Source: Bryoerythrophyllum caledonicum
Lineage: Eukaryota > Streptophyta > Bryopsida > Pottiales > Pottiaceae
NCBI GenBank assembly: GCA_963971425.1
Contig: OZ020517.1
Location: forward strand, 13,704,501 to 13,768,500
Direction: 5' to 3'
DNA: 64,000 bases
A model generated the notes under the pieces. It made no database searches and was not told where the DNA came from. It saw only the letters and a program-made list of their open reading frames with translations. The position numbers were made by a program, and so were the translations under genes. Numbering within the stretch: the first letter of the stretch is position 1; the number at the start of each line of letters is the position of its first letter. Of the stretch, positions 1,995 to 37,324 are shown piece after piece.

Positions 1995-4900
1995 TCAGAA
2001 GTAGGAATCCTCGAAAGTGTTTGTGGAAGATGACAGGCCAAAAATCTCCACGTCGGCTTCATCATCAATAAAACGACGAACACGACAGTCGAAATTTGGA
2101 ATAGAAGAAGTCGATGACGGAGATTGAGCCAGAGCCTGCGTAGTAGCAGCTGCCGCATCCCAAGGCGTCATGTTGAAGTCTCGTTCAGGAGATAACAATT
2201 GCGCAATCAATCTGAGCATGTGAACCACAGAATAGTTATAGACAGAGTAAACAGTTAAAGTATTGTATATCATCGAATTATCAAACTTACGTACTCAATC
2301 TAGTTCTCTTTGCAACTCTCCGAATCGGGACATCCACTTCAATAAGCGGATGAGCATCAGCAACAGAGGAAACATGAGGAACGGGATGACGCCCTTGAAG
2401 AAAAGGCTTCAATTTTGCATTGAAGACTGTAATGTCGTCGTCAAGGGCTACGATATGCCGGCCCGCTGATTTGCAAGCTCTTACGGAATTCCCTGTATTG
2501 AAAACACAAGATTCAATGACTGAAGAGGAAGACGAAGTTCAAATTACCGACCAATAATGCATCTTCAATGAAAAGGATTAGAAATTACCAACGGAAGCGA
2601 ATGCATCGAGGACAATGCAGCCAGGTTTCGTGAGTGCCTCAATGAACATCTCAATGAATGCTACGTCTTTTTCACGGGGGCCCCTCCACGGAACCGAGCC
2701 GTTCATCGATTGAGATTCTTTTGAAGTAAAGTTGAACACGACATCCGAATCCCCCACTCCCATGCCGAACTCGGTGTGGTCATCATTTACGGCAATGTGA
2801 AAGTTGTCAGCTCCAAGCTTCTCATGAATGAAGAGTTGTACTTTGAAGCGTCTGCTCTGGAAATGAGATAAGAGGGCAAAGAGTATAAAATCGAAGACCG
2901 GAATCCAAGAATGAAACAGAACAGAAAATCGTGTTATACCTGGACAACAGGAGAGAAGAATGACGACAAGGGGAGGTCGTTAATTCCCCACCACTCACGA
3001 ATCGGTTGAAAGCTATAAGCGGCCGCGAATGAGAGAACATCCGCTTTTATGCTGGGAACGTCGGGGACAAACAATAGAACAGCCCCCTTCGCTTGAAGAA
3101 AATGCTCCGCGAACTCAAAAAGCGTCTCCGTGTCCGCGACATCATACTGATTCCATATTGGGATGAAACCAGAGTTCTCGGAGACCCCGGGAACCGTCAT
3201 GCCATCCTTCAAATCTCCGATAATCAAATCGAAGCCGCTATGCGGGCACTTCGCAGAAAGAGAGAGTGTCCCAGTTTCATCCTTAACCTGAAAAACGAAG
3301 AGGCTCTAATTTTAAAAAAAGGCATGAGCTCGAATATCAAAAACCAAATAGGATGAAACAAATAACAAAACAGATTGAAAGTAGAGTGAAAAAAATAATA
3401 ACAAAATAGAACGAGAGCGACAAACAGCGTATGAAATACAAGTGCCGACGTCGTCAATGCTTGGGGAATACATGAAAGGAATACTTCCTCCCCATGAATG
3501 AGCTACCGACATTGGCTTTGAAGAAAACAGTATGCGAACAGATTGCATAATGAGTTGCGAACAGATTGCATGAAATCAATACGAAATAGTTGAATGGTAA
3601 GTGAAACTGAATTCTAAGTAAATGAGAGGAGTACCTGAAGGGCAAAGTTGTTGAGTTCTTGAAGGTTTGGATGGACGTTGGGCAAATCCTCAATTATATT
3701 TCTTATACTGGAGTTGGCAACAAAAACACGAGATCGAACAGAGGAGGATGGCTTGGTTTGGGGCTTCGTCGAAGCCGCACATTTCTTCCGCTGTTCAGAG
3801 ATGATAGGGTCTGAATTCACAAGACCAAAGTCTACGTCCGTAGCCAATACCTCCGTGGAAGTTGAAGGCCGTGGTGGACAAAATAGCGGAGCGAACTCGG
3901 GGACGGCAACATCTACATCCATCTCGGTAGTGGCCGTTAATATTGGTTCCAACGTTGTCTTCCGGCGGGAATCCACTGCCGCCGCCTCTGATAACAAGAG
4001 AATTCTCGCTTCTGCTTCAGCTGCCACCTTCAGGGAAATTTCTGCAGCAGCTTTCTTCTTTGCCTCCTCTTCGGCTTTGCGCTTTGACACCCGGGCCTTC
4101 GAGGTAGTGGCGTCGGAGGCGGGGGGGTGCACAAGTACCTCCGTGCCAATCAAGGCTGGCTATATCCCATTCCTTAGGGAAATCTCAAAAGACGGAGGGC
4201 ATTTCAGTGGGCAATCTAAATACCAACCGCAAGTTGCAAAATGCTCTTGACCCCACCTCTTCGCAATCTCGTCAGTTATCATGCAATTGTCACTTCTTCT
4301 GTCCAAGTATCCAGGAAAGAATGCAGGAGTCTTCGACACTGCACTTCGAGGAAGGAGAACAAATTGGTAGTACCTGTATAGAACTCTAGAAACCGCCTCG
4401 GCCAATCCGATCTGGTCCTCCGGTTGTTTATTCTTATGAGTTTTGTTGACCTCGAAGTCCTGAACAAAAGCAAGATCCCATAGCTGGATCCGCATCTCCT
4501 CAACGTAATCAGGAAGACTCTTCACAGCGCATTGACCAGCCGGGTGATAGTCGATGGTGACATTGAGATCAGATAGCGAGGCAGTGAAGAGGTCCTGAAC
4601 ATCACTGGCAATCTGGAAACATGGAACATATAAAATGAGGGAACAATAAACATAGTGTTTTGCAGCGAGTATGCAGAAAAATTGCATACCTGCGCCCACC
4701 AGGTGGCCTTGTGCAGCCATTCTGGAAATGAGTGGTCAGCGAACTTTGATCGAGGAAACCGCACAGCTGCCCGAAGCGATGTAGGCATATTCCAACGCTG
4801 CAACCACTTGACCTTCGTTGAGGGGTCCATGGTTGATGTCGCAAGGTACCAAAGCTTCTCCTGGGACATTTCAGGGTCATCTTCGTGGTTCTCATAGTGC

Positions 4901-6502
4901 TTTCGCACCTCACCTAGAAAATGCGGCGTATGCTTCGGATCTGCAATGGGAAGCTGCTTCATTACTTCAGACCGCCGGTCCTTCCTGATCTTGGCAACCG
5001 CTTTCCCAATAACCTCATGAAGTTTCCCAGTGTTCCACTCGCTAGATTTCTCTGGAAACTGTTCTTTGAACTTTCTAGTAGCATGGGCGACGGCGTCACC
5101 TAACTCTTGCTGCAAAAACGAGAAAAACAGCATACACTTAGGGGACTATGTAGAGAAATGGTAATGAGGAAAAAATAATAACATGGAAAACACAAAACCA
5201 ACAGGGTTCGGCAACTGCAAGATTTAGAGCTCCTCTGAAGAGGCCTGCTCAAGGTGCCTACATCATCATCAGGAGATGAACTGAACCAATGGAACCATTT
5301 CAATCAATAGACTATTCGATGTCGGAAAGGATAATGATGATCAATTCAGTCGATGGCACTTTAAAATCAAAGCTGATACAATGTACTGGAAGAATGAGAT
5401 ATAAGGAGAATTAATTTTACATGTACCTGATAGAGGACACCAATGAGAGCATCAACTGTCAATGTGTACCATGTGTGTTGATTTGCAGACTTTTGCTTCT
5501 TATCCGCACTTGCGAGGTCCTCTTTCGATACCAAATCTTCAAAAAACTTCAAAGGCTGTCCAGCGATTCCTTGCATGCGGTAGAGCTTATGGACGAGGTT
5601 AAGTTTTACATGTCCAGTTTGGTTCCTCCTGCATTTTTAAGGAAAAAGAGTTAGAAAAGTACAAAGCAAGAAAACTTATCACGAATTGGTCCTGAAGCGT
5701 ACCAATTCACTTGGTGAAGCGCGGTTTGTAGGCGCCCCACTTGTCCATCAACTTCTAGAATGATTGACTCAACCGCATAATGCCACGCTGGGTCACTGCT
5801 GTGATCTCTATTAATTATAGGTAACCACGCTGCGAGTCTGTGATTACCGTCCCACACGAAGAACATTTTTCCCGAGAACTGCATCCATACTTCTTCTTTC
5901 ATTAACTCAATCTCGAACTCTTCGTCAGCTTTAACCCACATTGGGCTCCATTTTGCTTTAATATCATGCGTCACTTCCTGCGATCTGCCCTCATTATCAT
6001 GGATGGCAACGTAGAACACGCCGTGGCCGTCCATATAGCCTGTGGTCACAAATTGTGCTCCAAGTGCCATTACATCATTTTTTAGGTATGGTCTTACCGC
6101 AGCGAGAGGCAACATTCGGCATAGGGGAATACAAAGCTTCGACTTGTTTCTTGGCTTGAATCGCCGTTCGTCAAGGATTAGACTGGTGTTCGATGACTCC
6201 ATGACTACCAACTTATCCATTTCCCTCCCCAGCTCTTCTGCTGACATTTGAACAGGCGGTTCGCAATCACGCAGCTGATCTCCAACATCAGAAACTGGAA
6301 CGTCCTCGATGATCAATGCATTGTCCAAAGTATGAGCCTCCCCGCCATCATCACCTAAGGATTCATAGCATGTCAGCCCATAATCATGAATTCAGTATTG
6401 AAGCAACTGAAGAATTACCTTCTTCAAAGATTTCAGGCTGTGACCGATGAAATAAACCAGCAGAAGCCGGAACTGTAGCCTCCGCTTCTCCTTCTTCCAA
6501 TG
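1995..6502 (-). CDS. Gene A: ParB-like plus methyltransferase-like protein
   Basis: Nine exons can be placed with GT-AG junctions: 6419-6502, 5703-6354, 5427-5628, 4690-5109, 3635-4612, 2940-3287, 2589-2856, 2291-2492 and 1995-2211, giving about 1,120 codons plus 5' exons further upstream. Order of parts: acidic N-terminus; ParB-like domain with DGNHRLAAW; helical middle; Ala/Lys/Glu-rich segment with KRKAEEEAKKKAAAE (probable coiled coil and nuclear signal); methyltransferase-like C-terminus. Gene B aligns along the whole length, which supports the exon calls. The product could bind DNA or nucleotides through the ParB-like part; no function is proven. One in-frame TAG (4160-4162) breaks the 3635-4612 exon, so the gene may be a recent pseudogene. 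The stop is TGA at 1995. The true start is not identified. Confidence 0.7.
2291..3287 (-). other. Methyltransferase-like domain of gene A
   Basis: Exons 2940-3287, 2589-2856 and 2291-2492. The segment FDLIIGDLKDG sits where amino-methyltransferases (N6-adenine or N4-cytosine) carry DLxxxDPPY, but the DPPY catalytic tetrad is absent. Near the end, GCIVLDAFASVG followed by NSVRACKSAGRHIVALDDD matches the SAM-binding pattern VLDxFxGxG...GR...E/D with changed glycines. Catalytic motif first and SAM motif last is the class-beta order. The family match is by pattern only. Loss of DPPY argues for a binding role or inactivity. Confidence 0.55.
5703..6354 (-). other. ParB-like domain exon of gene A
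   Basis: This exon encodes LCIPLCRMLP, similar to the opening IPL segment of ParB-like domains, then KMFFVWDGNHRLAAW (about 5822-5866), matching the ParB/Srx-like (D/E)GxHRxxA motif. Gene B has IPLCRM and YIYDGNHRYEAW at equivalent places. In bacteria and phages such domains bind DNA or nucleotides and are sometimes fused to DNA methylases. The donor after codon letters TG joins exon 5427-5628 in phase to complete a Trp codon. Confidence 0.6.
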
Positions 6503-6599
6503 CTGAACAAGGACAACATTTCAATGATTATGAAGTACAACCGGGAGCAAATGAGATTATGAAATGAATAGATCAGTCTTGATCTGGCGGGCATATCAA

Positions 6600-6820
6600 A
6601 GGCACTCTTGGATACAAGCGCCCCGGCACCTCCAGCCCAAGCATCGAGCCCCGGCATCTGGAGGCTGCCGACATCGGCAGCCTCCTGCTGGTGCCGCAAC
6701 CAGCTGCGTGTCACGAGCCTGTGTAAGCTTGTGTATGCTTATAGCCTGTGTCAAGAGCCTGTGTAAGCTACGCTCTTTGCGGAGTCAAGAGCCTGTGTAA
6801 GCTTGATAGATATCATAAGT
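6600..6820. repeat. Palindrome plus GCCTGTGTAAGCTT repeats in a gene A intron
   Basis: GGCTGCCGACATCGGCAGCC lies at 6662-6681, followed by several copies of AGCCTGTGTAAGCTT-like sequence (6715-6810). These lie inside the intron between exon 6419-6502 and the 7.4-kb exon. Confidence 0.6.
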
Positions 6821-7381
6821 TAGGAGTCATCGTGCACCTGAAAATTATTTAGGCTTGGCCACTTAGCGTAGCGGATTATACATGTGCGTGCAGCATGCAG
6901 ACCACTTCGCCAAGCCCAACTGCAACTAAAAATGCGGCACAAACGACTGGACTTCGCGAAGTGTGGATATGCGTGTGCGAGCAGCATGCACTAGTTTGTA
7001 GCGTGACCTTGCTATCCCTAAACCAGGACACTCAGAATGTTGATATTTATCTTCACCCTAAACCCAAGACCTAGGGTCCGACCAAAGGTTTCTTAATCCA
7101 CATGATTTGTGTATACACTGTCTCTTCGTTCGCATCAGACACTACTTCAGTTCTACTGTCGCCTAGCTAGAGACTTATCATTTTTCGTGAGTTACTTAAT
7201 TCTCATTGATTTTGTAGACTTGGAAATGGTTTTAATATGGTACCTGAACTTCGTAATGGCATGAGTCAAAGATTTAAGCTCGAATCCCAGTGTCTTATAA
7301 CAAAACTGGACCGACCAATTCTGTGCAAAAAAAAAATTCATGATGATGAAAATGAGTTGGGATGCAACAAGAGTTACATAC

Positions 7382-7453
7382 CGTCATTGACGTCCTCCGA
7401 GCTCGTCCTATTTTCGGCGTCCTCCACAGCCATACTATAAAGATCTCGTTCCT
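7382..7453 (-). CDS. 5' exon of gene A, copy nearer the core
   Basis: A 72-bp open segment between ATGCAG and a GTATGT donor encodes ERDLYSMAVEDAENRTSSED and a few further residues. Its final base G completes an Ala codon with the CA at the start of exon 6419-6502, so the splice phase fits. The acidic composition matches the N-terminal part of gene B. Confidence 0.5.
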
Positions 7454-7525
7454 CTGCATTCACATCAACGCACGTTTAGCATCCAAAACTCAGTAAGCCG
7501 CATACAATATGAAGAGCCTGGAGGC

Positions 7526-7612
7526 TGCCGACATCGGCAGCCCCCTGCTGGCGCCAAAACCAGCGCGGGTCGCTATGCCAACACTGAGCTGCCGATGTCG
7601 GCAGCCTCTCGG
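7526..7612. repeat. Pair of GGCTGCCGA palindromes
   Basis: GGCTGCCGACATCGGCAGCC and GCTGCCGATGTCGGCAGCC flank a short GCGCGGGTCGC-containing spacer. This is the same unit as the array at 9.2-9.6 kb. Confidence 0.7.
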
Positions 7613-9086
7613 TGCCGGGGCTGGATGCGTTATCCTCAGCTTCAGCTTACACAATTTTCAGGAGATTTCTATACTCACTTGCAACTGACAACTCCATTGT
7701 CGCGACTTCAAAGCTTTGGTGCGTTGGTGCACTGAAATGCCTACCTTGTTCAAGGCCTGCTTATGGAGCCCTAACGTAGAATTCAGGGCTTGGCGCGCAC
7801 AAAGGAAACCGCCGGGAATTAGATGGCCTCGGTTTGGACCGCTTCGGCTGACGTAAAATATCAAAAATTGTTGACTTATCTCCCGAAAATAGCTACCCTC
7901 GTTGGTTTGTCAGAACCCTGTGTAAGCTTGATGGACATTATAAGTTGGTCCTAATCTTAGGTATCACCGTGCAGCTTGAGATATGCAGGGCTAGGCCACG
8001 AAGCGAAGCGGATTAAGCATGTGCTTGCTGCAAGCAGCATGCAGACAACTTCGCCAAGTCAAACTGCAACTTTAGACTTTAGTAGTCTCTCAACTTACTG
8101 GGTCAGGCTCTCAACTACTAGGTTTAGATCGTAAGAAGTTACAATTTTGGAAGGTTGTAGAGTTTTCCCATACCTTTAAAATGACACCATTCATGCTTCA
8201 AAATTCCTCATACTTTAGGAGATATTCCCGGTCAAAGTTTGAATACACTGTAAGGGCATGCTGAAATCTGAACACAACTGCGGTATATGCTTATTTATTC
8301 TCAAAATCTGCCCAAAATCAATTAGATCGCAGTAACTTCAAAAATTCACCAAAATTAGAGAATTTACTTTTTTTCGAATTTCGTTTTTCGTACATGTAAA
8401 AGAGGTAGTAAAGCATGATCTCACCGTTTGGATTTTCAATTCGATAAATTTTTAACATGCCTTTTTAATTATTGAAAATGGGCAATTGAATTTGTATATC
8501 AGCAGACCTCCATGTGAAAAATTTTGCAGTTCTTTACGTTTTATAGGTCCTATGAGGGTAAAAAATATCTGGACATATTCCTTACTCACATAGTAACAAG
8601 AATATGAAGAGCCTCATGTCAAATTTTCTTTCAAAAATGGTTTTTATGGCCCCCAAAACATTAGTTTTCCATTCTACAACAAGGAAAATTTTTTTTTTCA
8701 ACTTTGACCATTACGATCTCACAAATGGAGAAGAATTTGAATCTAAGATTCGGAATGCATGTTCATGTTCAAGTTAGGTACTAGATCTTACGGTTATAAA
8801 CTCGAAAATTTAAATACTCGAAAGTTTTTAAATTGTCACCTTGCATTCAAAGAGGGCAGTTTTGAATCTACATGAATTGTGTATGCAATGTCTGATCGTT
8901 CGCAACAGACACTACGACATTCACAACAGTACTACTCTCGCCTAGCTAAAGATTTGTCATTCCTTCGTGAGTTTTCAATCGCATCTTGCACACACTGGAA
9001 AACTAGACCGACCGGCTTGGTTCTGTGACAATAAGAATTAATCGAGAAAGATGAAAATGAGTTGTGGTGCAACAAGAGTTACATAC

Positions 9087-9158
9087 CGTCATTGACGTCC
9101 GCCGTAATCCTCCTAATTTCGGTGTCCTCCATCGCCATACTATTAGGATCTCGTTCCT
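9087..9158 (-). CDS. Duplicate 5' exon of gene A
   Basis: Copy of the 7382-7453 exon with the same 72-bp length, ATGCAG acceptor and GTATGT donor, encoding ERDPNSMAMEDTEIRR and onward without a stop. It could be an alternative or additional exon of gene A, or a passive duplicate. Confidence 0.4.
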
Positions 9159-9229
9159 CTGCATTCACATCATGACAGGTTTAGCATGCAAAACTCTGTG
9201 CGGCGCTTATAGAATGAAGAGAAAGGAGG

Positions 9230-9610
9230 CCTGCGCGGGTCTGCAGCCCCTGTCGGCGTCGCGATCCGCGTAGGTTGCTGCGCCAATGGGGGGCTGCCGA
9301 TGTCGGCAGCTCCCAAGTGCCAGGGCTCCATGCATGAGAGCGCCATTACCTGGAGGCTGCCGACATCGGCAGCCCCCTTTCGGCGTAGCAACCTGCGCGG
9401 GTCGCGACGCCGATAGGGGGCTGCTGATGTCGGCAGCCTCCAAGTGATGGCGCTCTCGCGCATGGAGCCCTGGCACCTGGGAGCTGCCGACATCGGCAGC
9501 CTCTTTTTGGCGCAGCAACCTGCGCGGGTCGCGACGCCAACAAGAGGCTGCCGATGTCGGCAGCCTGTATGTGCTGGCGCTCTCGCGCATCGAGCCCCGG
9601 TACCTGGGAG
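9230..9610. repeat. Array of perfect 20-bp palindromes, about 63-bp spacing
   Basis: GGCTGCCGATGTCGGCAGCC or its CATC form recurs at about 9292, 9355, 9419, 9482 and 9546. Spacers alternate between a GCGCGGGTCGCGACGCC type and an AGGGCTCCATGCATGAGAGC type in opposite orientations, so larger dyads are nested around the short palindromes. The array runs into the assembly gap, suggesting collapse during assembly. Confidence 0.85.
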
Positions 9611-9810
9611 NNNNNNNNNNNNNNNNNNNNNNNNNNNNNNNNNNNNNNNNNNNNNNNNNNNNNNNNNNNNNNNNNNNNNNNNNNNNNNNNNNNNNNNNNN
9701 NNNNNNNNNNNNNNNNNNNNNNNNNNNNNNNNNNNNNNNNNNNNNNNNNNNNNNNNNNNNNNNNNNNNNNNNNNNNNNNNNNNNNNNNNNNNNNNNNNNN
9801 NNNNNNNNNN
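9611..9810. other. Assembly gap (200 N)
   Basis: A run of exactly 200 N. It interrupts the palindrome array on its left and a reading frame on its right. Confidence 0.99.
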
Positions 9811-12593: not shown

Positions 12594-12599
12594 AAAAAT

Positions 12600-13360: not shown

Positions 13361-13367
13361 CTACAAG

Positions 13368-13552
13368 CTGGAGTACCCTCTCGGAAACGAGAGGATACGT
13401 GTGAGAATATAGTAAGTACTCTATGAGCTACATCTTTGAAAAAGAGAGTACATTGCTGAAAATAATTCGCAAGGCAGAACAAATAGTACGTACACAAATA
13501 ATGGGTAGTGAATATGGTAGAGTACCCTCTCAGAAACGAGAGGGGACGCAAA
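13368..13552. repeat. Two CTCTCGGAAACGAGAG-type hairpins
   Basis: GTACCCTCTCGGAAACGAGA (about 13371) and GTACCCTCTCAGAAACGAGA (about 13523) lie about 152 bp apart. They share the core of the large arrays at 23.9-25.1 and 33.1-33.9 kb. Confidence 0.8.
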
Positions 13553-13582
13553 CAACATTACGGGATAGGAATTGACACTGCA

Positions 13583-16500
13583 TTAAGTTCTAGGGTGTGC
13601 CAGTACGTCACTTTCTAGAACTAATTTCACCTCGTTGAAGCTAAAGGACGGCGCATGAATGAATCTGTGAATATCATATTGGAATTTACAAATTCTCAAG
13701 AAGATGAAGTAGATGTGCTTACAATACGAGAAGAGGTTCTGTCCACGGAATTCCCATATGGTCTTCACGAAGGCTTCACACGTATAGTAAGAAAAAGAGC
13801 TCACAGTGATTGTGTATGTCCTCTCATCAGGAGGAATACCCGAGTCGAGGGAGATAATGCACCCAAATCCAGGATGAGGAACCATACGGACAAAACGGAT
13901 ACAGGCTATGATAGACGCGGCAGATCCCATTGATCGCCTTTGATTTGTATTGGGCTTTGCAGAAGAGCGCTTCACAAGCTTCCCGTTCCTCTTCGCTGGG
14001 TACTTATCAGGATATTGGGGCACGGGAACACTGGCAAGGTCTAATGGTGGTCTAGCGGTTGAAAAAAGGCGCCTCAAAGAAACCTGTTGCTTCTGTGGAA
14101 GTTGAAATCCACCAAGTTGTAAATCTTCAATCTCGTTCCGAGTGAGATTAGTGCCCGACATTACCGGCCAAACATCTGGAATTGGAGGCATGCCTAGCTC
14201 CGTTGAGTATCGATGAACCCATGGACGTCTTAAACCTTTCACGCACCGGTCGATGTCGTCGTTACAGAAGTAAAAATCGGTTGGGTCGTTAGATATCTTC
14301 TGTCTGCATTGATAAGTACCATTGTAAGTGGCGCAGCAGTAGCCTTTCCTCCTCTTACAATCTTCTCCTTGCATCTTCTGGTTTTGGTGTGATTAGCCCA
14401 ACACTTCTTAGTCGAGTTAGAAGGCAATCGAGCAATATGCCACTCAGTTGGGATGGCAAAAGTTTTGTGTACACTAGTCACAGGACGAATACCAACCCTA
14501 CATCCCAAAGACGCACTTGAAATTGGGGGCGCCGGTTGTGCAGGTGGGATCTCGACAATTGGAATGTCATCATCTTCATCAATAACTGGCAGAGAATTTG
14601 AAGAAGAACCAAGCCGCCTAGAAGAGTAGCGTGGATGAGAAAATTTTACCCTGTCCGGACGGTGTGACTCTTCATCGGCGCCGAGAGGTAAGTTGGCCTT
14701 GCGCTTGTGTGTATTGAATACCTCTGCGCCTTGCATATACGAATCACGCGTACAAAATTCATCCGCCCCCGGCATCATCATCATGGGATCACCAAGAACG
14801 CGTGGATCACCTGTCTTTCTAGCTCTACGTTCAGCCGCTCGGAGTTTCAATTCTTCTTTAGTTGGACATGTCCCGCCAGCGTCACCCTTTAGAAATTGGT
14901 AATAGTGAACAACTTGGAGGAAAGCACGAACGTAGTCATCCATTGTCGCGACGTACAAATCTCCGCCGTTATTCCTTGAGGCTTGCTTCCACTTATTGTG
15001 AATGGATTCAGCGAGATTGCAAGAGGGCATCTCAGCAAGCTCATCCTCAGACATACTCTACAATAGAGCAAGAAAAATTAGTACGATGTCTCTCAGTAAA
15101 ACGATTTAGATGGAAGAAGTTGGAGGGCAATACCTGCGTCATGAATCCACCCCACTGCCGGTAACGAAAGTGCCAAAAAGCTAACCAAAGGTCAAGATGT
15201 TGGAACCCGGACTCGGAAACAGCTCCAGAGGATGCCCACCATGCTCGAATACTGTGATATAACTTCTCAGCCTCGTCCATTGTACACGCCATCTTGTATT
15301 GGTGACATAGTGCCTTGTGTTGATCACATAATGGTCCCTAAATAATGTATTTGTCACTGTGCTTAACCATCGATTGGGCCCAATGAAATAGGCAGGTTTG
15401 CTCCCTGTCTATCATCGGTTCGTCCTTATGTCCGCTACCGTACAAAACCCGTACGGCATTCCAGTTAGCCTGAGCACTGTCGGCCATGAAACCTTTAAAT
15501 TGAGGTGAAGCTAAACCATGTCGAGACATTACAGCATTATGGTTCTTCCAGAATATCATTTAAGCTTCGGCATCTTCGGACTGCATGTCGCAGCAAGCAA
15601 TGCTCATAACCAGATAGTAGGTAGCATCATACACGTGACACGCCATGGTGGTCCACTGTTTCACGCGTTTAACATGGTCAAACATCAACCACGAATTCTC
15701 CAGATCACCACCAGGCTGCATACGCTTCACTAAATCAACACCCGAACCAGGTCCTACTTCATACATTTTGAAGACGAAAACCTTCTCAGATTCTTCACTT
15801 TGACCAGGGAACATATTTTTCTGAACAAAGGCCCAGCTACTGACTCCCCTAAGTCTGGTAATGCTGTCTAATACGCCGTACCGCTTCAAATATCGAAAGG
15901 AGACAACCTTATTTCGGATGCTAGGTGATCCCATATCCTTGCACTTATCAAGCATCGTAACTAATTCTTCAAAACTTAGAATTCGCTCAGGGTCGTCCTC
16001 TTCTCGCAATAAAAATTCCCCCACAAGATCTTTGCTTGCTTTCAAAACAATGGAACTTTTGGTCGCAAGAGGAGTTCTCTGTATCTGCTCACCAATTAAT
16101 GAATTGATGCACTCCTTAACCTCTCTGTAATCTCCAGTTTTAACCGGATGGTTGTGTGTCCCGAGGTGAATACATGCACGGGTGATATTGTGCTTACTCG
16201 ACACATAGTAAACTATAGCAGGACACGGCGCAAGACACGAAGGGGGCTTGCGGCAAATTTTACAAACCAGTGTTGAGCCCGAAGGTGGTACCTGACCCGG
16301 AGCAAAAGGATGTTGCGTAATGTCTTCGAACTCCGTTTCATTAAATGGCGCCGTCCGATGGTTTCGGCGGAGATACTCCCAATCCTCGTTACTGCAACAA
16401 AGATGTCCAACGCACTTGGAAGTCTTGAAGTTGAGGCCATCGTCGTTGGTGATATTTGTGGTGATAGTCTTCGTCTAAACGTGCCCGTCGTATCTTTTGT

Positions 16501-17306
16501 CCATGCCATGCATGTTCTTCGCCTGAGTAGACGCTGATGAAATGCCTGCAGGGGGTAATTCAAAAATAACATCACCATTGAATTCGTGAGGAAGGTATGG
16601 AACTTGCTCACAGCGGATCTTGTTATAGTCTAATTGTTTCAAGGGATTCTTACTACCTGGTCGAGTTCGCAACTCTCTCAGGCAAGAAATAACACTCATA
16701 ACAGTCGAGTCTGTGGTACGCTTAGCAGGACAAGACATCGGCGTACGAGATACTGGGACGCAAGACGAGGGGGTGTTAGACGAAGGATCGTACGACACAG
16801 GAGTAGTATTCCAGGGAGGGCATGACATAGGGGTATCGGTCTTGATCGGACAATTCCTCGAAGAAGGGGACTTGTTATCTGATGACAACAAAATTACGCT
16901 CTCCCTCCCAGGTTCAATCTTAACTCTTACTCTAGGTGGAGGTGGGGTGTGCATCTTAGACGACGATGACCTGGGAGGCGTAGGAACGTAAGAACTTGTA
17001 GGAACCTTAGATTGCTCAAGACCATAGACTCTATAGTGTCCTGGTCTGAGCTTCCACAATTTTTGCGACCCCTTGACCACAACAGACTGCATAGCTATAG
17101 TATGAACAAGCTCCAAAGATACGTCGTCATAAACCTCTTCCTTGACGTTGATACTGTCCAGCAGAAGTGAAAATCTCAAACTTAACATGAATGGAGTCAC
17201 GGAAGCAAGCCCATCGTTATCTACATGAATATTGAGCGGTACGCCACTATCACTAGTCCGAAGAGAAACAAAGACAGGAGAAGGTGCACCGGAAGAGGAT
17301 GCCATT
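13583..17306 (-). pseudogene. Mutator-like (MULE-type) transposase, broken
   Basis: The reading starts at ATG 17304-17306 (MASSSGAPSP) and runs through a Ser/Pro-rich N-terminus, a Cys-rich segment (CKICRKPPSCLAPC, then CIHLGTHNHPV), a DDE-type core (VYDATYY; FMADSAQANWNAV; TCLFHWAQ), a second exon with NLAESIHNKWKQ and a C-terminal SWIM-like Cys/His cluster (YYTCEAF...YCKH). Intron 15058-15133 (76 bp) is conserved in the copy at 39.5-41.7 kb. Lesions: TAG 16475-16477, TAA 15560-15562, TAG 15338-15340 and a frameshift near 14328-14334. The role would be cut-and-paste transposition; this copy cannot encode a full enzyme. It could be the former transposase of the surrounding element. Confidence 0.8.
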
Positions 17307-17399
17307 GCAAAAGATGGCGACTGTGATGGATGCAAGTGAGTGTGGGTCGTATTAATCCTGCTGGAGCGAATGCGAGCACTCACCAGAGGTTGGTGCAAG

Positions 17400-18770
17400 G
17401 GCCTATCAAGCTTAATTCAAGAGGTAGTGAGTAGGGAGGACGGCGCATGAATGATAGATTAGCAGGAGTTAGAAATAATGTTGCGAGGGAGTCTATTACT
17501 GTACGTAGCTTCTAAAGATACTTGAGAAGCTAGGAGCAACGGCGATCAATTTATAGAACCGGAAGTATAGTTTTGGAATTAGCAGATGTCGTGATTAGTA
17601 AATAGAGTATAGCAACGAAGCATGGCCTATATAGTCATCGATTCGAATTGTTTATTAAAAGTGGTGGGTGAAAGTTGTCTACAAGTGTCGGATAATTCAA
17701 ACATCACCACAGAATAGAGTACTTATATTGGACGCCGCCGTCCTGACGTAAATATAATGATCCCAGTGTATAGAGCGTGGTGCTTTTGAAAGCGGGAAAG
17801 TTCTATTGGGCACACGATATGTCCACACGAAGCAAGTAGATAGGCAGTAAATCGCAAGCCCAGAGTTTGGAAGTCTACAATATTTAGCGTATGCTAGGAA
17901 CGAGTTGAGTAGGAAAACCCACTTAGATCAGATTCCAAAGAGGAAGAAACGGGCGGCCCAATTCTCAACCTCGAAACAACTGAAGGCGTGACAGGAGTCG
18001 CGAATGCGGAGGTACGCGGGCATAGAGGGTACAGCTAGAATATTAGGTCCGGAGTTCGCGAAGCTAGACGTAGTGACAACGTCGAGGCGAAGAAGGAAAG
18101 CAGCGGCTGACAAGGAGCAAGAGGTTCAAGTATCGATGGACGATGCGCGTGTTTCAGAAACGCAGGTGCACGCTTGTTTTGTAGCGAGGAAGGGTGATAG
18201 AAAATGTATCTTCTGGAAGGGTCATAGGTGTCCCGTGAGTCTTACTTAGACGTTGTTTATCGGAAAAAAGAATGATGGATGATAGTGCTTTTTAATGTCG
18301 ATCTCGTGGCAGAATTTGATGATTGCAAGAGTCCTCTGGATGGGCAGAGGGAATTCGACCTTGACGGCTTAAGTATAGGACAATTATGATGTTAATGGAA
18401 TACAATATTGATGCAATTGGTAATGTGTAATATGATGGTAAGGTGAGGAAGAGGTTGAATATGATAAATGATAAGTTGGGTGGCGGCCAAAAATGATGTT
18501 GAAGTGATAAGGTACGATGATTGCTTGACTTGTAAGCGAAGTCGAAATGATGAGTATTTTACATGTGTACTCGATATTGACGGCTTAAGTTGCGGCCGAT
18601 GCTGACGGCTCTCCCATGTTATGTCAAATCAAGGCCCTAAGAAATGACGATTGTGAATAAGATGGCTTGTAAACATAATAATTGGGTTGTTGATGGAAGG
18701 GTAGTGGTCTTAATGAGTTCTTGAAATGGACGGGTTAGGTAGAGGCAGAGGTTGACCGCTCACCCCGACC
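17400..18770. other. Region between MULE and gene B
   Basis: Mostly unassigned. A 17-bp stretch GGACGGCGCATGAATGA at 17438 repeats in the same orientation inside the MULE 3' coding end (13646). Confidence 0.35.
18004..18249 (+). CDS. Hypothetical ORF, basic and short
   Basis: An 81-codon frame encoding MRRYAGIEGTARILGPEFAK, then SRRRRKAAADKEQEV and a Cys-containing tail. Upstream in the same frame, before a single TGA, lies PKRKKRAAQF. No family recognised and no splice signals convincing enough to extend it. It may be a decayed exon. Confidence 0.2.
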   Translation: MRRYAGIEGTARILGPEFAKLDVVTTSRRRRKAAADKEQEVQVSMDDARVSETQVHACFVARKGDRKCIFWKGHRCPVSLT

Positions 18771-18775
18771 AAGCC

Positions 18776-18783
18776 TATAAGTA
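18776..18783 (+). promoter_or_regulatory. TATA box of gene B
   Basis: TATAAGTA about 107 bp upstream of the inferred ATG at 18890, a normal distance for a TATA promoter with a short 5' UTR. Confidence 0.5.
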
Positions 18784-20924
18784 GAGAAACCTCCTTTGTT
18801 CATCTTCTTTCATTTGTGCAACCTTAGGAGTCTTAGGTTTTGTAGTCGAAAGTTTTGGTTTGCAAGTTTAAGCGTTCTAGTGCAGAGCGATGTCGAGAAA
18901 TTCTGCGTTTGATAGGGCTCCGGAGCGTTCTATGCAGGTAATTGTAGGCAAGCTTAGGTTACGGAATGCTTTGGGTTTCGAGTGAAGTGAGAGTCAAGGT
19001 ATGGCGAGGTGTATTGGAGAATAGTTTTGTGAAGGAAGTACGATATATAGCTAACACCGGAATCGATGGAATCGCAGGTGGATGAAGAGGAAGCTCCCGG
19101 CGATCCGGTTTTGCGCATGGCTCGAGGCCACAAGAACGTGACTGTCGGTGGAGAGGATGCACGTGAAGTCGGTGTGGAGCTCACGAGCGATGGTGGAGGC
19201 GAGGGTTTGGCGATGGCCATGGCCGACGTTGAAGAAGTCCGAGACAGAGGCGAAGGAGACGAGGCGGGACGTGGAGGCGATAACGAATTCAAGGAAGACG
19301 TTTTAAACACGGTGACCGAAAGTGGCGGAGAGGAAGAGCAGGAGCCCGACAAAGGACTTGATGATTTAGATAAAGGCGACATTGAAGAGAGCGACGAAGA
19401 TGACATCGACAGGATTGAAGAGGAGGCGGAGAGCGAGGAAAGAGCTGGTAGTGAAGCGGGGGCGGAGAGCAATGCAGCCGCTGTCGGCGAGGCCCTTGTC
19501 GGGCTGGGCTTGTCAGACTCAAGTAAGGACAGCGAAGCCGAGAGAGGGTCGACGAGGAAGGGCAAACGCAAGAGCAAGAAAAGGGAGAAGAAGGAGGCTA
19601 CACTAGACCTTGACGATGACCTCGGCCAGGATCCGGATGCGTCCATTGATGAAGTGACGGAGCGAATTGGCATCGTTTATCACCCTGATGCATTTGCGGC
19701 GATCAATCTAATGCGGCGTCTCCCGATGGGTAAATTCTCACATATTCAAATTCCCTTGTGCCGCATGATACTAATGCAGGAACTTTGAAAAGTGCACAAA
19801 ATCGAGAAGCAGAAGATGATGGCTGGGTTTGCTCATGGTTATCGAGATGGCGACACTTCTTTCTACCTAGCGGTGACTGGCAAGGAGGGAATGGAGCGGC
19901 TTGTTGATGTAGCGATTTTGAATTCTTGGTCCTCAGGCTGGAAAACCATGAACGACGAATTTGAATCCGAGTTGGCTGACGACGATGACCTAAAGCATCT
20001 GAGTGGAAAGGTGTTGTACATCTACGATGGCAACCACCGGTACGAGGCGTGGAAAGAGTACATTGACACGAAGAAAGCAGGTGACACAGAATTTGTCAAG
20101 AAGAACGGGAGGCCGTTGTGCATAATACTTGACATTACACCGAATGGGTATCCACGAATACTTTCCGCGATGCACGCCCTCAACAAGTAAGTCTCTTTCT
20201 AAAGTTGAAAGGTTTGCAAGCTTATTTGGTTTTGCAGCTGATGTCCGCTGTTTTGTTACGGCAAACGAGACAAATCATGTCGTTACGAATGTCATGCATC
20301 AACTTGACCGGGTGCATTTATACGGCACTCGACCACTAGAGTATTACAAGAACTTAATTCCGCCCCATCGCTATGATATATGCGTGAAGAAGCCAAGCAC
20401 TACGTGGTACCCGATTCCCGCTTCTCAGATGGTCAAAGTCCTATTCCAAGTAATCCTCGTTCCTCACATCCTTGGATCAATTAAATTTCCAATGCGAGCT
20501 CTTACTTGGTTATTGCGGTGATGCAGGATGAGTTACACGAAACCGCTGTAAAAGAGCGACTCGCGTATCTGGCTGAAACTCCACAGGACGAACAGATAGG
20601 ACGAGGAATACAAGAGTATATGGAGGGCCAGATCCGTCTCAAGCGTGATAAACTGACGAAGAGGTTTGGCAAGCTTGCCGAAGTGGCAAACCCAGCTAAC
20701 GGGGATAGCTTTCTTAACGAGGTAACCAAACAAGCCACCGTTAATCTTCTATGAATGTTTATAAATTCAAAATAGTTATATGAATCCACAGAGGATTTGG
20801 GAATGACTAGGACCGATAGAACAATATTAGGCTGCTAATGAGACTACTAGGCTTCATATACAAAAACTAGGAAGTGTAATACGAGGAATGAACAGGTCCC
20901 AAAAAGTACCCACTCCCGATTCCG

Positions 20925-21005
20925 AGAGTGTACCCGGCGTAGCCTGGGTACCACTCAGCATATCCTTTCATTACGAGAGGGTATGCTGAGTGGTACCTGT
21001 GAGCC
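20925..21005. repeat. Isolated unit of the CGAGAGGGTA palindrome family
   Basis: GGTACCACTCAGCATATCC and its reverse complement flank TTTCATTACGAGAGGG. It is nearly identical to the last unit of the array near 25.04 kb. Confidence 0.75.
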
Positions 21006-21889
21006 AAATAAACCGCCCCCTAATGGGGTGGCTTATCTTGAACACAAGATCCTACATATGGGATGCAGCCCCTTGTGCAAACATACTTAACCATTCATAC
21101 AAGCATGATGACCCAAGGCGTGGTCACTTAAGAGGGTTCATTAATAATTAGTGATGTGATGGCTGAATTCAGCCTTAGGTTGAATCCAACCTTTAGACAA
21201 GCGTAAATTCCGCCTCACAGCTCCGTTTCCAATGTTTTAAAGCTCCATTAGGTTCAATTTCGCCTTGTGAACTTGATTAGCACCTTAACCACCAATTCCA
21301 GGCCCAAGTGCGACCCTGACAGCAGCAACCAGCAGACAGGCTCCTCTTTTTATGTTAAAAGTTTAATTCTTCATTATCTTCGTGATTATGACTCCGTTTT
21401 TTACGTTTGTTTTTTGTATTCTTATTAGTTTTTCTTGCTTAACACGATGGCAGCCTTCAATTAACAGGTTGACTCAATCCGGGACTCACAGCCAACGACT
21501 AGCAGTGCACACTTAACATACATGTTTATTCAAAATCGTGCACCACAATTCACGTGTATACCACATGCATTCACACAAGTGGCCCTACTCAAACACTATA
21601 CCATGCATGAGCCTCCAGCTGCCTTCACTTACTATTGTAGATTAAACCGATTGTTTGGTTGAGTTGATAGCAAACCCTAATCCTAGTGAAAATTTGGCAG
21701 CGCTTCCGCGTGATTTTTTGTAACTAGAAAATTTAGGGTTCCTTCTCCACATGCAATCAAGAAGATAATGAATCAATTGGGAGAGGAAGAAGGCTCCCTG
21801 ATCTAGCTCAATTCACCCTCTGCCGTGTTCGTGGTCGTTCTTGTGCAGTGGTCGTCCTCCTCTTCTTGGTGCTCTTCACTCCACAGCCC

Positions 21890-22915
21890 GTATCTTGGTC
21901 GTCACAACTCCGATTTGTACGTTCTTGATCTTGTTGGAAAGCCAACGCTCTAATCTATCTAGTCCTAAAATCTTAGCTTGATCGAACAAGAACTCTGCGA
22001 CAAACAAGGGGAAATCGGAGGCGGCCAAGTGAGATCCGTCGCCGCTCCTCCAGCTGGTCGTCCTCGCTCCGCAGCTTGTATCTTTGTTGTCAGAGCTCCG
22101 ATCCGTACGTTCTTGATTTTGTTGGAAAGCCAACGCTCTAATCTATTTAGTCCTAAAATCTTAGCTCGATCGAACAAGAACTCTGCGACTGACAAGGGAA
22201 AATCTGAGGAGGCCAAGTGAGATCCGCCGCCGCTCCTCCAGCTGGTCGTCCTTGCTCCGCAGCTTGTATCTTCGTTGTCACAGCTCTGATCCGTACGTTC
22301 TTGATTTTGTTGGAAAGCCAACGCTCTAATCTATCTAGTCCTAATATCTTAGCTTGATTAGACAAGAACTCCGCAACTGACAAGGGAAAACCTGAGGCCG
22401 TATGAGATCCGCCACCGATCCTCCAGCTGGTTGTCCTCGCTCCGCCGCCCGTATCTTCGTCGTCACAGCTCTAATCCGTACGTTCTTGATCTTGTTGGAA
22501 AGCCAACGCTCTAATCTATCTAGTCCTAAAATCTTAGCTTGATTGGACAAGAACTGCGCTACTGATGAGGGAAAACCTGAGGCCGTATGAGATCCGCCAC
22601 CGATCCTCCAGCTGGTCGTCCTCGCTCCGCCGCCCGTATCATCGTCATCACAGCTTCAATCCATACGTTCTTGATCTTGTTGAAAAGCCAACGCTCTAAT
22701 CTATCTAGTCCTAAAATCTTAGCTTGATTGGATAAGAACTCCGCTACTGACAAGGGAAAATCTGAGGCCGTATGAGATCCGCCACCGATCCTCCAGCTGG
22801 TCGTCCTCGCTCCGCCGCCCGTATCTTCGTCGTCACAGCTCCAATCCGTACGTTCTTGATCTTGTTGGAAAGCCAACGCTCTAATCCATCTACTCTCCAA
22901 TTTTCGTAACGATTG
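21890..22915. repeat. 185-188-bp satellite, six units
   Basis: GTTCTTGATYTTGTTG begins at 21921, 22109, 22297, 22482, 22667 and 22852, giving periods of 188, 188, 185, 185 and 185. A 3-bp indel separates the first and later units. Open frames across it come from the repeat itself. Confidence 0.95.
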
Positions 22916-22949
22916 AATCACATTCCAGTCCACAGGAGGGGGAAATCTG

Positions 22950-23864
22950 GAACCCTACCTCTCTCTCACTTCCACACACCTCTCTCGGTTTTCTAGCTCC
23001 TACCACACACCTCTCTAACTCCTACCTCCCACACTTCGAATGAGCGCCCTCCAAGGAGGTAATCCCAAGGCCCTTGCTCCTTTCTTTGTTCCCAAGGTCG
23101 TTCCCTTCGTCGTTCACAGCCGCCATTTTGGGTGGGCACATTAATGGTCACACTAAACAACTAGTAACTAAAAAGCTAATAAATCACTAGCCACCCTTGC
23201 ATTTAACACAAGTGGGTGTCCCACTAACCAAGGAATATCTAAATCTAAACTTTGACTCCATGCCACATGTGTGTGCATGATCTCAATAAGTGAGCTATTA
23301 GCTAATTTTCAAAGGTGCAAAAATCTAATTTAACCTACCTAAATTGAATTCCCCTTGCTTGGGGGAATTCCTAATTTACTTAGTGATTGGTGACGGTTTT
23401 TTTCCACTTCTTTTTGGACCCTTTTGACTATTTTTTTAAAGGCTTTTAACGCCCCATTCTTTTTTCTTTTCTCCTCACCATCCTCCTTCTTCTTCTCCCA
23501 TTTTTTTGGTTTCGTGATTTCTTCATCGTGACCGAATACGGTCTACAACTCGATAGGAGGTAAATTCTTCTCCACCACTACTCATTTTAATTCTTTTCTA
23601 ATTTTCTTTTGTCTTTTTTCCCTTCTCTCTTTGCTTTTCTTTTCTGGTTTATTCCCTTTTTTTTTTCTTCCTTTTTGGCTAACTACATAAATTCCGCGAT
23701 TGCCCATAAATGGCTCCTCTTTTAGTGAGGGGAAAGGCCACTTGGTCATTTTAATCAAAAAACCACGAGCTAGTCCATGGAATAACCCATTTTCACCACT
23801 CATTAGCCTTAATGGACCCGACGTGAGGTCCATGTATCACCGTGAGCCATTTTTGCGGCTCACA
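22950..23864 (-). repeat. LTR-like block starting TGTGAGCC
   Basis: Reading the minus strand from 23864, TGTGAGCCGCAAAAATGG and GGCTCACGGTG match TGTGAGCCCCAAAACCGG and GGCTCACGGTG at 59728, followed in both by purine-rich GAAAAGAAAAG tracts and AAAAGCCTT. This suggests one LTR or solo-LTR family. The far ends were not found. Confidence 0.35.
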
Positions 23865-25075
23865 GTACCCGTGCTACGCCGAGTACCCTCTCGGAACCGG
23901 GGAGGGACTCCACCAGGTGGACCTCACTCGGTCCCGGGAGGGTACCTGGTGTTGCCCGGGTACCACCGGGAGTACCCTCTCGTTACGAGAGGGTACTCTC
24001 GTTGGTACCCGGGCGACACCCGGTACCCTCACGGGATCGAGTGAGGTCCATCCGGTGGAGTCCCTCCCTGGTTCCGAGGGGGTATCCGGTGTCGCCCGGA
24101 TACTACTGAGAGTACCCTTTCGTAACGAGAGGGTACTTCCGGTAGTACCCGGGTGACACCGGATATACTCTCGAAACCGGGGAGGGACTCCTCTTGGTGA
24201 ATCCCCCTCTGATTCCGAGAGGGTACCCGGCGTAGCACGGGTACCCTCTCGGAATCGGAGGGGGACTCCTCCGGGTGGACCACTCTCGGTCCCGAGAGGG
24301 TACCCGGTGTCGTCTAGGTACCACCGAGAGTATCTTCTCGTAACGAGAGGGTACTCCAGGTGGTACCAGTGCGACACTGGGTACCCTCTGGGAACCGGAT
24401 TTATGGCTATGTTTAGCATAACATTGTATTGATAGGGTACCTGGCGTCGCCTAGATACTACAGGGTGTACCCTCTCGTAACGAGAGGGTACCTCCAGTGG
24501 GTTTTGGGCGACACCGGATACCCTCTAGGAATTGGGGGGTGACTATTTCACGACGTCTTCGCTCAAATTTGAGAGGGTACCCGGAGTACCCCAGGTACCA
24601 CCCTGCATACCTTCTCGTTACAAGAGGATATGTAAAGTAGTACACGGGGTACTTGGGTACCTCACAAAATCTAGGGAGGTTTACCAAGAGGAGTTTCCTC
24701 TCGATCCCGGGAGGGTACCCGATATCGCCCGGGTACCACCGGGAGTATCCTCTCCTTACGAGAGGGTACTCTTGGTGGTACCCAGGCGATACCGGGTACC
24801 CCCTCGGAACCGGGGAGGGACTCCACCGGGTGGACCTCGCTCGATCCCGTGAGGGTACCCGGTGTAGCCCGGGTACCATCGAGAGTACCCTCTCGTAACG
24901 AGAGGGTACTCCCGGTGGTACCTGGGCGACACCAGGTACCCTCCCGGAACCGAGAGAGGTCCACCTGGTGGAGTCCCTCCCTGGTTCCGAGAGGGTACCC
25001 GGCGTAGTACGGATACCACTCAGTATACCCTTTCGTTACGAGAGGGTATGCTGAGTGATACCCGGGCTATGTCAG
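23865..25075. repeat. Array of nested palindromes, about 139-bp spacing
   Basis: Cores of the type ACCCTCTCGTTACGAGAGGG are centred near 23994, 24124, 24341, 24479, 24619, 24757, 24897 and 25037. Between them lie GGTACCCGG...CCGGGTACC and GGAGTCCCTCCC/GGGAGGGACTCC arms, so each core sits in a longer dyad of a few hundred bp. Spacing is 138-140 bp except at the left end. Confidence 0.9.
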
Positions 25076-27930
25076 GTCTCCTTCTTTATGTCGTGAGGTT
25101 ATCTTAATCGATAGCTGCTTATGTCGTCGAAGTTTGAACTCCTCTGAATTTGACTGGACTTTATTACCTTTTCCATTTGTGCTGGAACTTTTTCGTGAAC
25201 AATGCATATCTAATTTTGTGACCTATTGAATCAAGACACAGGTTCAAAAGAACTACGACAGGCACAACTTGGACCGAGTGGAGATGGGCCTTGAGAAGCT
25301 TCAGCTTGTTGCCACTACAATTGTTCCCGCCAAGTACAAGGTCATGTGGCTGAGGATGTGGAACGAGTCGGACTTTCGGCGAAAACAGAATCATTTTCCA
25401 GAGTATCCATGCTCTGATAGCGGATCTGGAGAAATTTCTAGCACGAGCGGTCTTCTATGCTTGGGTACGTTTAATCACTGCTCTGGATTTGAATTATTCA
25501 ATTTTCTTGTTTTCTTCACGCATTCCTGTATATCTATTACATCTTCAGGAGGATCTCGGGCCAAAGATGGATGATCTCCTCGGCTACCTGGAGCTGAACT
25601 CCCATTCAAGGGAGCAGCCACTATCTTGGATGGAGTAGTTGGCGATGTGGAAGCTCCGCTTGTGGGAACATGCGTTCAACACCCACTTTCTGGCAGAGTC
25701 CCCTTTTACTCGACTGTCGAAATGGGAGGACGTCAAGGATCGCGGAGATATTGCAACCCGGTTTGCCTACCAATATATCAAGCATGAACTCCTTGAGAAA
25801 TGTGCTATTTCCTCTCTTCCACTATGGATGCATACGGCGTACTCAACGTCGTCTAGCTCTTGCATATACTCTTCGTATCAGTTGTCGTTGTTTCCGTTGG
25901 ATCATCGGAAGGACTGCTATTGGTATGTTGAGCGTCACAAGAACTACTGCCATGAGGAGGAGCTCTTCATGAAGGAGGGGCACGGTCCTCTGAATGACGT
26001 CAAGGAGGACTTTCCAGAGAAGGCTGAGACAGCGAAGGAGAAGAAGAAGCGCTCGAAGCCAATGAGCCCAAACACAAGATGTCTGTAAGCCAACAAGAAG
26101 GCTAAGTAGCGACGTGCTAAAATGAAGAAGGCTAAAGGCAAGTCTGCTGCGGACGATGACTTAGATGTGGAGGATGATCTCCAGGTAATGGAGGAATCCA
26201 CATTTCCTGAGTCCTCCGTCAGGGATCATCGAGTTGCTACAGCCTCTGTAGTCGTCCAGCCACCAGCCCGTGTCACTCTGTCGGATGATCGGCCTCTAGA
26301 GGTTGAAGAGTCGCTGCCGGAGGAGATTCCTTTACGCCCAAAGACGGAGCCTACACCAGCGGAGGATTCAGAAGCTGCTCTCCTAATTTTTGGATGTGTG
26401 CAGCCTCTTCGATCTCTCAAGTCACTCGCTGCTAATCCTACAGTGTCAATTACGCACTCCCACTCCACATCCACGAGGGTGCCGCACGACGATCCGACCC
26501 CTAGTCTAAACATCACCCCCACGAGTCACACAAACCCCGGTGGCGCAGATCAGACGTCGAGACAGCTGATCATGAACGAGTCAATGTCACGTGATGTTTG
26601 GAATGAGATCTCTGACTTTGTCACTGATTGCAATGACGGAAAGACTTGCCTACTGCGAGGAAATGTCGTTCAGAAGGGGCAAAGGGTAGACCTCGTTCTC
26701 GCTCAAGTACCAGACAATCTTCCCGTGCCTGATGTATCACTAAATCCAGATGAAGTTCCTGATTGGAACATGCTCTCGACTAGCTGGATGAAGATGCTCT
26801 TTGGTTTTGCCAACGTCTTCTTGCATGACAATGGCGGTCTATTTCTAACGTTTTCTGATGATAAGGACAAGACGATGCAGATCTTCAGGGCCCACTTTTA
26901 TGGGTTCGGATTCAAGGTTATGAAGGAGTGGGTCGGTGTTAACAGACTGCCAGAAAGATCCGCTGCAGCGACTTCAGGGACCACTAACTTGTTCAAGGTC
27001 GTTCTTCTTGTGCGTGCCAATTCTCTTCAAGGTCCAGTCAAAGCGTACCGCAAATCAAACTTCCGATTCCGAAAGCATCCGACACTTGAGGAGCTCTCAC
27101 TGGATATTGCTGGGAGTGATGCCATCCTCAATTTTGTGAGCAAGGAGACACTCACTCGGATTGCTGATCGGGTGTGGCGTGGGGCAAAAGAACGTGGTCT
27201 GCACTTCTACACGTCGTTGATTCTATCTGCATCAGACGAAGGGGACGTCGTAGTTGACATAACCGCCGCTACACGTGCGCCTAAAAATTTCTTCGATTTT
27301 ATTTAATTTTTTTTTCCCGCTAGTTTTCACTGTCTGATTTTTTTCCAGGCAACTCTATTTGAGTCTACAAGGATCACGGTCGTCACATCGTTGCGCTTGA
27401 GGCCAATGCGGAGGTATTTGAAGCCGTTCTGAAGCCTCTCACTGTCCAAGTCCATGCAATGCGCGTCGAAGACTACATGGATGTATCTGACGACGACTCT
27501 GACCATTTGACTCTACCCTCCAACATTCCAAGTGTCATTCCAGATGCTGCCGACCTGGACTTCGAGCCCTCCCCAAAGCGTGCCAAACAATCGAAGCCGT
27601 AAGTAGGTGAAACTCAACGGTACCTTCACCAAGAACGTTGTTGATGTCATGATTTTCTTCTCTATCTCGGCATCGATTTTCATAGACTCTTCTTTTTACT
27701 GCAGACGTCATTTCTCTGTACCTCAAAGTCCCGAACGTTTTTCTTTCTTGCCCGTATATGCGAGGGATATGGCCAATGCACTAGCGGCTTCAAATTCCCC
27801 ACCTGCTTCTCGTCTTAGAAGGCAGCGTTTTGATCCAGCAGTTTATAAATTTCTAGACATTCAGGCTGAGGAAGATAATGACTTCGACACTCTCTTTGGA
27901 TCAGATAAATGCTCTGCAAGCAAATCTTAG

Positions 27931-37320: not shown

Positions 37321-37324
37321 TCTT

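Follow-up and report, generated by a model that had tools for sequence, protein, structure and literature searches.

Only few transposon-encoded accessory proteins are understood so far, among them VANC and mudrB. MuDR, carrying mudrA and mudrB, and other Mutator-like elements (MULEs) with two open reading frames (ORFs) are transposons with terminal inverted repeats (TIRs) that harbor a second, non-transposase gene, and the target-site duplications (TSDs) of MULEs have a length of 8–11 bp (PMC6446971; this and all further citations refer to excerpts of the respective papers). In the Arabidopsis VANDAL elements, the element-encoded protein VANC binds a short motif clustered in tandem repeats which vary between related elements, and it causes loss of methylation over its element (PMC5735166). 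In the bacterial protein Bce_0392, a ParB domain and an adenine methylase are joined (PMC5512222), and dinoflagellate and charophyte retrotransposons took up a DNA-methyltransferase gene (PMC5890265). In this study, we analyzed 64,000 nucleotides of Bryoerythrophyllum caledonicum (Pottiaceae; assembly GCA_963971425.1, contig OZ020517.1, positions 13,704,501 to 13,768,500, forward strand), in the following referred to as the window, with two related spliced genes, A and B. What is best supported is a TIR transposon of Mutator-like build in which a transposase-like gene is accompanied by a conserved accessory gene of beta-class methyltransferase origin.

Like MuDR and other two-ORF MULEs, elements of the gene-A type (A-type) combine TIRs and TSDs of the named length with a second, non-transposase gene; unlike in those elements, the second protein is methyltransferase-derived, the two genes diverge from the centre, and the MULE profile misses the transposase. 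With VANDAL elements they share an element-encoded accessory protein, and the tandem arrays of A and B differ from each other, as the targets of VANC vary. The permuted motif order and the profile similarity are those of the beta-class amino-methyltransferases such as DpnA and CcrM (PF01555), but here the DPPY motif is replaced in five lineages, motif I is altered, and the gene is a spliced gene of a eukaryotic transposon. As in Bce_0392, a region is joined to a methylase-like part, the label ParB-like being taken here from a motif alone; unlike in Bce_0392, a long middle region and a linker lie between both parts and motif IV is changed. The methyltransferase-carrying retrotransposons are likewise transposons with an acquired DNA-methyltransferase gene, but the enzymes are cytosine methyltransferases there, whereas a relative of the amino-methyltransferases is found in a DNA transposon here. 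Among the titles and abstract openings listed in searches of the open-licence PMC literature, no report of such a transposon gene was found.

Genes A and B as parts of mobile elements

Gene A is located on the minus strand and consists of seven exons (6391 to 2285), which join to a single frame of 1036 codons, counted from the preceding stop and not from an assigned start codon. All six introns have GT-AG borders, and all phases are compatible. According to the splice model and the genome-wide copies, exon 1 (5703..6391) encodes an acidic N-terminus and the region with the DGNHR motif. Exons 2 (5427..5628) and 3 (4690..5109) were assigned to a middle region by translation and the splice model; this region ends in exon 4 (3635..4612), where it is followed by a Lys/Ala-rich linker. 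The methyltransferase-like part begins with exon 5 (2940..3287), in which profile alignment placed DLIIGDLKDG at the motif IV position, continues in exon 6 (2589..2856) from PWRGPREK to VLDAFASVG of the motif I region, as found by PF01555 and PHROG matches, and is completed with the stop codon by exon 7 (2285..2492; splice model). In the window, gene A contains a single in-frame TAG at 4162–4160 in exon 4. The whole frame was read in five A-type copies, three of which are open, one of these with a changed acceptor; in the remaining two, a stop and a stop plus a 2-nt insertion were present, respectively.

Copies were searched in the window's own 437-Mb genome, where first-look candidates are not equal to confirmed copies. 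The DGNHR exon of A gave 1,774 first-look candidates, and all 150 of those scored match; contigs C5 and C13 have no match among the 150 listed. Half-element 1, which contains gene A and makes up one half of an A-type TIR transposon, extends from 877 to 9610 (minus strand). Its end is shared by four other copies, whose alignments stop at 877 (one of them at 876), and it is collinear with two C8 copies, to 9487 (99.7%) and to 9610 (97–98%). When the last 300 bp of this end were used as query, 40 of 40 scored matches (379 candidates) reached the end at 877, and the flanks beyond it were unrelated in 17/30 loci with the strand read, save for one pair sharing its flank. The TIR at 877..939 (plus strand) starts with GGGGATTGCTATTTTGCGTGCC and carries subterminal GCGAGCT repeats; in one C8 copy its inverted partner is present at the far end (56 bp at 89%, E=2e-16). 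Between both genes of A-type elements lies a 127-bp GC-rich array with the palindrome GGCTGCCGACATCGGCAGCC, found with TRF at 9281..9607 of the window and adjoining other copies too. In one C8 copy, the 5 kb following this array were used as query and found at at least 22 places including the query itself (26 of 1,852 candidates scored), so the A-type element continues past the array. A query from the far end, extended only four bases past it, matched at 40/40 scored places out of 325 candidates, and the matches end at the same position to within a few bases.

Sixteen A-type copies could be paired at their ends, and 13 of them are bordered by exact 10-bp TSDs. Since two copies share flank and duplication, these represent 12 independent insertion events. 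In the other three, the duplications agree at 8/10 and 9/10 positions by eye, and one right end was unparsed. Except for this end, both terminal sequences are present in the other paired copies, and the end-to-end distance is 14.4 to 19.0 kb in 14/16 and 25.3 and 28.6 kb in two. There is thus very little doubt that the unit is mobile and that the A-type is a TIR DNA transposon with 10-bp TSDs. A lone host gene or decaying pseudogene was ruled out by the ends, the TSDs, the copy number, and the ratio of nonsynonymous to synonymous substitution rates (dN/dS). A one-ended, Helitron-like element was entertained as long as no inverted end was seen near the array and was dropped once the far end had been located. 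In the C8 copy, position 4773 was likewise dropped as 5′ end, being an internal repeated leader-like segment. No transposase half of the window's A copy was seen, the sequence past an assembly gap of 200 N (9611–9810) within the GC-rich array being unlike that of other copies. A C8 copy also has a run of N at its array, and assembly thus seems to fail at this array. In a C10 copy (L043, position 1329), a terminus of the same family, GGAGATTGCTATTTTGCG, directly adjoins an A-type copy at its 5′ part, as would be expected for a nested insertion.

Gene B is a broken paralogue of A on the plus strand (19051..27600, end approximate), delimited by blastp against A and by translations. It comprises a DGNHR exon (19051–20187) interrupted by an in-frame TGA at 19786–19788, a methyltransferase-like exon (26110–27303), and a last exon at about 27350–27600 with a frame change recognized by eye. 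In blastp, A and B match in the DGNHR exon (E=3e-15), the middle exons (E=9e-9 and 2e-6), the methyltransferase exons (E=3e-9 and 5e-6), and the last exon (E=2e-4). Within the DGNHR exon, 43/128 aligned residues are identical, with DGNHR as the longest identical run. In the translations, the acidic N-terminus is plain in B and less pronounced in A, and a Lys-rich linker is visible. An earlier note on this stretch, drawn up from the letters alone, had described A and B as a spliced family sharing DGNHR, middle region, linker, and a C-terminal segment in class-beta methyltransferase order, and this description was borne out by the splice model and blastp. With the methyltransferase exon of B, 2,221 first-look candidates were obtained, of which 147 were scored, giving at least 150 matches, with some copies represented by more than one piece. 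Gene B contains an array of its own (23864..25082) with the palindrome GAGTACCCTCTCG.T.ACGAGAGGGTACTC (GAGTACCCTCTCG...CGAGAGGGTACTC); its sequence is unlike the array of A. Related palindromes are present at 13371–13550 and 33147–33648, and the region 33095–34022 is densely filled with minisatellite-like repeats, which contain the GAGTACCCTCTCG palindromes of gene B as well.

Divergent to gene B, a transposase-like gene (TPase1; 13586..17416, minus strand) was recognized by its homology to a second, degraded transposase-like copy (TPase2; 37311..41713, plus strand; blastp to TPase1) and to a gene of the A-type C8 copy. The latter is located past the array on the opposite strand and has open frames and 71–73% DNA identity to TPase1 over 576 and 164 bases. 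A TPase1 exon gave 2,425 candidates in the genome, and 130/130 scored match. To analyze the pairing, the 80 best B-type places, selected from 150 rows after removal of two second pieces, were compared with the 130 listed transposase places. A transposase match was present within 25 kb of 49/80 B-type places, divergent in all 49 cases, and spaced by 6.5–9.0 kb in 39 of them; for the other 31 places there was no partner within this distance among the 130 matches listed. In a random control with 200 placements, using assumed lengths for contig C6 and small contigs, a mean of 1.2 and a maximum of 5 were obtained. TPase1 and B of the window form one of the 49 pairs. The span 1995..27930 given in the earlier note for a single two-domain family does contain A and B, but it covers parts of two mobile units together with the additional transposase-like gene. 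The view of a multi-copy, spliced, eukaryotic two-part family held, as a mobile family and not a host gene, according to ends, TSDs, and copy number.

The family is very abundant: a single genome contains at least 150 copies, and their number probably runs into the thousands. Some copies look recent, being near-identical and with open frames.

Domains and selection

Judging from its profile matches, the C-terminal domain is as good as certain to have originated from a DNA amino-methyltransferase of the beta class. The L001 lineage matches the C-terminal part of PF01555 with E=3.7e-7 and 30.8 bits, above the cut-off of 26.7; the spliced A reaches E=1.1e-5 and 26.0 bits, which is 0.7 bit under the cut-off, and the open frame around exon 6 of A gives E=0.002. 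Exons 5–7 of A match a PHROG DNA methyltransferase (3.6e-6), a further PHROG match of the family has 1.6e-8, and the best PDB match is the adenine methyltransferase DpnA (5hek, E=3e-4). When a profile of two A-type copies, L001, and B (4 rows, 3 kept by the filter) was aligned with six phage methyltransferases by hhalign, a probability of 98.4% (E=6e-15) over 226 columns was obtained, with the motif IV region before motif I; 20 column shuffles gave at most 0.3% and the reversed profile 0.1%. Profile searches against methylase families had been proposed for this half of the protein, and PF01555, PHROG, PDB, and hhalign agree in confirming it. Among viral contigs, 195 stretches fit a pattern, and none was confirmed as a relative.

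The loss of DPPY in both genes, also claimed before, was verified, GDLKDG (A) and AQVPDN (B) occupying the DPPY column of the profile alignment. In the same column, IDQPFE (L001), TDVPEG (L099), and AEIPDG (L100) were read, the positions in L099 and L100 being placed by eye. A catalytic (D/N/S)PP(Y/F/W) is thus absent in 5/5 lineages, with the first proline lost in all five and the aromatic residue in four. The replacement in all five lineages makes the change look ancestral and kept, and from the missing proline and aromatic residue we infer that ordinary DNA methylation was lost. Of the S-adenosylmethionine (SAM) motif DPFxGSG, the D is retained and the rest is altered (VLDAFASVG, VVDLNASTG, VVDITAATR). 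As read from the DPPY column, the domain is probably without ordinary catalysis.

For the N-terminal half, the label ParB-like is a reasoned guess, because only the DGxHR motif aligns and the profiles find nothing. DGNHR is intact in 27/30 fetched A-type copies and also in B; E. coli YbdM and five phage ParB-like proteins have DGFHR in five cases and DGYHR in one. PF02195 had no match at E≤1 across the whole genome, with 11/14 positive controls detected. NCBIfam gave no match for the DGNHR region, and the profile search of the PDB listed nothing but a ribosomal protein (E 0.11), taken as chance. The DGNHR exon of A gave beta-lactamase matches in the PDB at E 0.15 or worse, also taken as chance, and the exon of B gave five phage records at E 0.7 or worse, none annotated as ParB. 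Weak named matches were DUF1015 (0.0036, exon of B) and a ParB-like PHROG (0.14). When the region was aligned by hhalign with these six proteins, coverage was limited to 15 columns around the motif, at 3.3% and a score of 21.7, compared with up to 19.6 in 50 shuffles; without B, the value of 0.9% fell short of the 2.0% reached by 50 shuffles. The middle region had no match in PDB or PHROGs. Of the ParB–methyltransferase fusion in the earlier note, the methyltransferase half therefore stands and the ParB half is not established, in view of PF02195 (0 genome-wide) and hhalign (3.3%).

When two A-type copies, from C8 and C4, were compared, dN/dS was 0.22 overall (95% bootstrap 0.15–0.32), with 0.17 for the DGNHR exon, 0.06 for the middle region (0.044 for exons 2–3), 0.13 (0.05–0.29) for the methyltransferase part, 0.59 for the acidic N-terminus, and 1.06 (0.46–3.1) for the linker. 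Comparison of A with a 77% lineage gave dN 0.078 and dS 1.56 for the DGNHR exon; for a second such lineage (L036) dS was saturated, giving no ratio. The A-type protein is kept by purifying selection, as measured on one pair. The terms "eroded" and "cargo", with which the active site and the gene had been described, are misleading given the dN/dS of the methyltransferase part in this pair and the lack of DPPY in all five lineages. Of the suggestion "captured and repurposed or cargo", we retain that the gene looks maintained and re-purposed, according to dN/dS and the five lineages, and not that it is cargo, since it is the transposon's own second gene.

Possible role and alternative explanations

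As the best overall explanation, we lean towards a transposon with a non-catalytic, methyltransferase-derived accessory factor. By analogy with mudrB and VANC, from which the role is deduced, the A/B protein would serve as a DNA-recognizing accessory factor of the element in the style of MuDR and VANDAL. Its DGNHR region and middle region would engage the element's own DNA, possibly the lineage-specific palindromic arrays, the dead methyltransferase fold would bind DNA or SAM, and as an outcome of such binding the element could stay active against host silencing. This accessory anti-silencing or self-recognition mechanism is a tentative proposal drawn from those analogies. A bolder and rather unlikely version is that a eukaryotic DNA-transposon lineage turned a bacterial-type ParB-methylase into a non-methylating, self-recognizing factor, whose ParB-like part reads palindromic, parS-like arrays differing between lineages and whose dead fold counters or senses host methylation. 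If true, a ParB/parS-like recognition system would be built into a transposon. Whether transposons use dead amino-methyltransferases for recognition of self-DNA or to defeat silencing is a testable question, and many natural combinations of protein and array are available within this one family.

The protein could instead belong to the transposition machinery, with a ParB/Srx-type nicking or NTP-dependent domain helping to cut or assemble the ends and the methyltransferase fold as DNA-docking module. The strong constraint on the middle region and the DGNHR exon would fit this, as would the nicking of DNA reported for the ParB-methylase Bce_0392 (PMC5512222) and the description of mudrB as apparently required for integration (PMC6446971), both as given in the excerpts. 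We consider this doubtful, because a ParB fold is not supported by PF02195, PDB, or hhalign and the partner gene is already transposase-like by itself. An active, unusual amino-methyltransferase marking the element's DNA with 6mA or 4mC would explain why domain order, similarity in the SAM region, and purifying selection are retained, and in bdelloid rotifers 4mC has been reported, in the excerpt used, to serve as an epigenetic mark (PMC8885841). It is nevertheless improbable in view of the absence of DPPY in all five lineages read and of a motif I that is non-canonical as well. Passive carriage of a captured host or bacterial gene would be in line with the tendency of MULEs to acquire host gene fragments (PMC6446971, excerpt), but identical divergent pairing in 49/49 paired places and several lineages, together with a dN/dS far below 1 in the domains and about 1 in the linker, makes it highly improbable.

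A further alternative concerns the class of the element, which could form a separate, unnamed superfamily with MULE-like TSD length. It would account for the transposase being missed by Pfam, by PF10551 (among the matches listed), and by hhalign against two MULEs. By eye, the transposase carries D...D..CxxH and NLAES motifs and a C-x-C...C-x-H cluster, which we take to be MULE-like and count against this alternative. The long TIR and the 10-bp TSD within the MULE range of 8–11 bp (PMC6446971, excerpt) also speak against it, and we regard a separate superfamily as not very likely. Both TIRs and TSDs of this length are found in A-type copies, and the assignment as putative MULE rests on these two features, the transposase profile having given no match.

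Several findings weigh against the accessory-factor explanation or parts of it. Pfam returned only a UPF0715 line (E 0.076) for the transposase pieces, PF10551 (MULE transposase) was not found at the transposase of the C8 copy among the 150 matches listed (384 candidates), and hhalign of the transposase with two MULEs of the same genome gave 0.15%, with very thin profiles. For B-type elements, no ends could be located; a candidate pair, 12565/37356, comprises 34 nt at 85% with no TSD by eye. PF01555 matched at just 8/150 scored genome places, all above the cut-off, and the methyltransferase exon of B alone had no Pfam or PHROG match. The IDQPFE lineage (L001) keeps D, P, and the aromatic residue, and residual catalysis may occur there. 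All selection figures come from A-type copies. GC-rich minisatellites can give rise to palindromes that serve no function, and those described here may be of this kind; that the protein binds the arrays is something we purely infer, and the likeness to VANC is a functional analogy and not a sequence comparison.

Further features of the window

Two copies of a small open frame are located at 31138–31530 and 35019–35456 (plus strand), with 61% identity over 137 aligned residues. Fragments at 46720–47447, 51568–51819, and 63677–63883 (all minus strand) resemble, by eye, what we take to be a reverse transcriptase of a long interspersed nuclear element and Tc1/mariner transposases. Two distantly related open frames (26%) at 52560–52952 (plus strand) and 56436–56825 (minus strand) are presumably gag-like in the style of plant retrotransposons.

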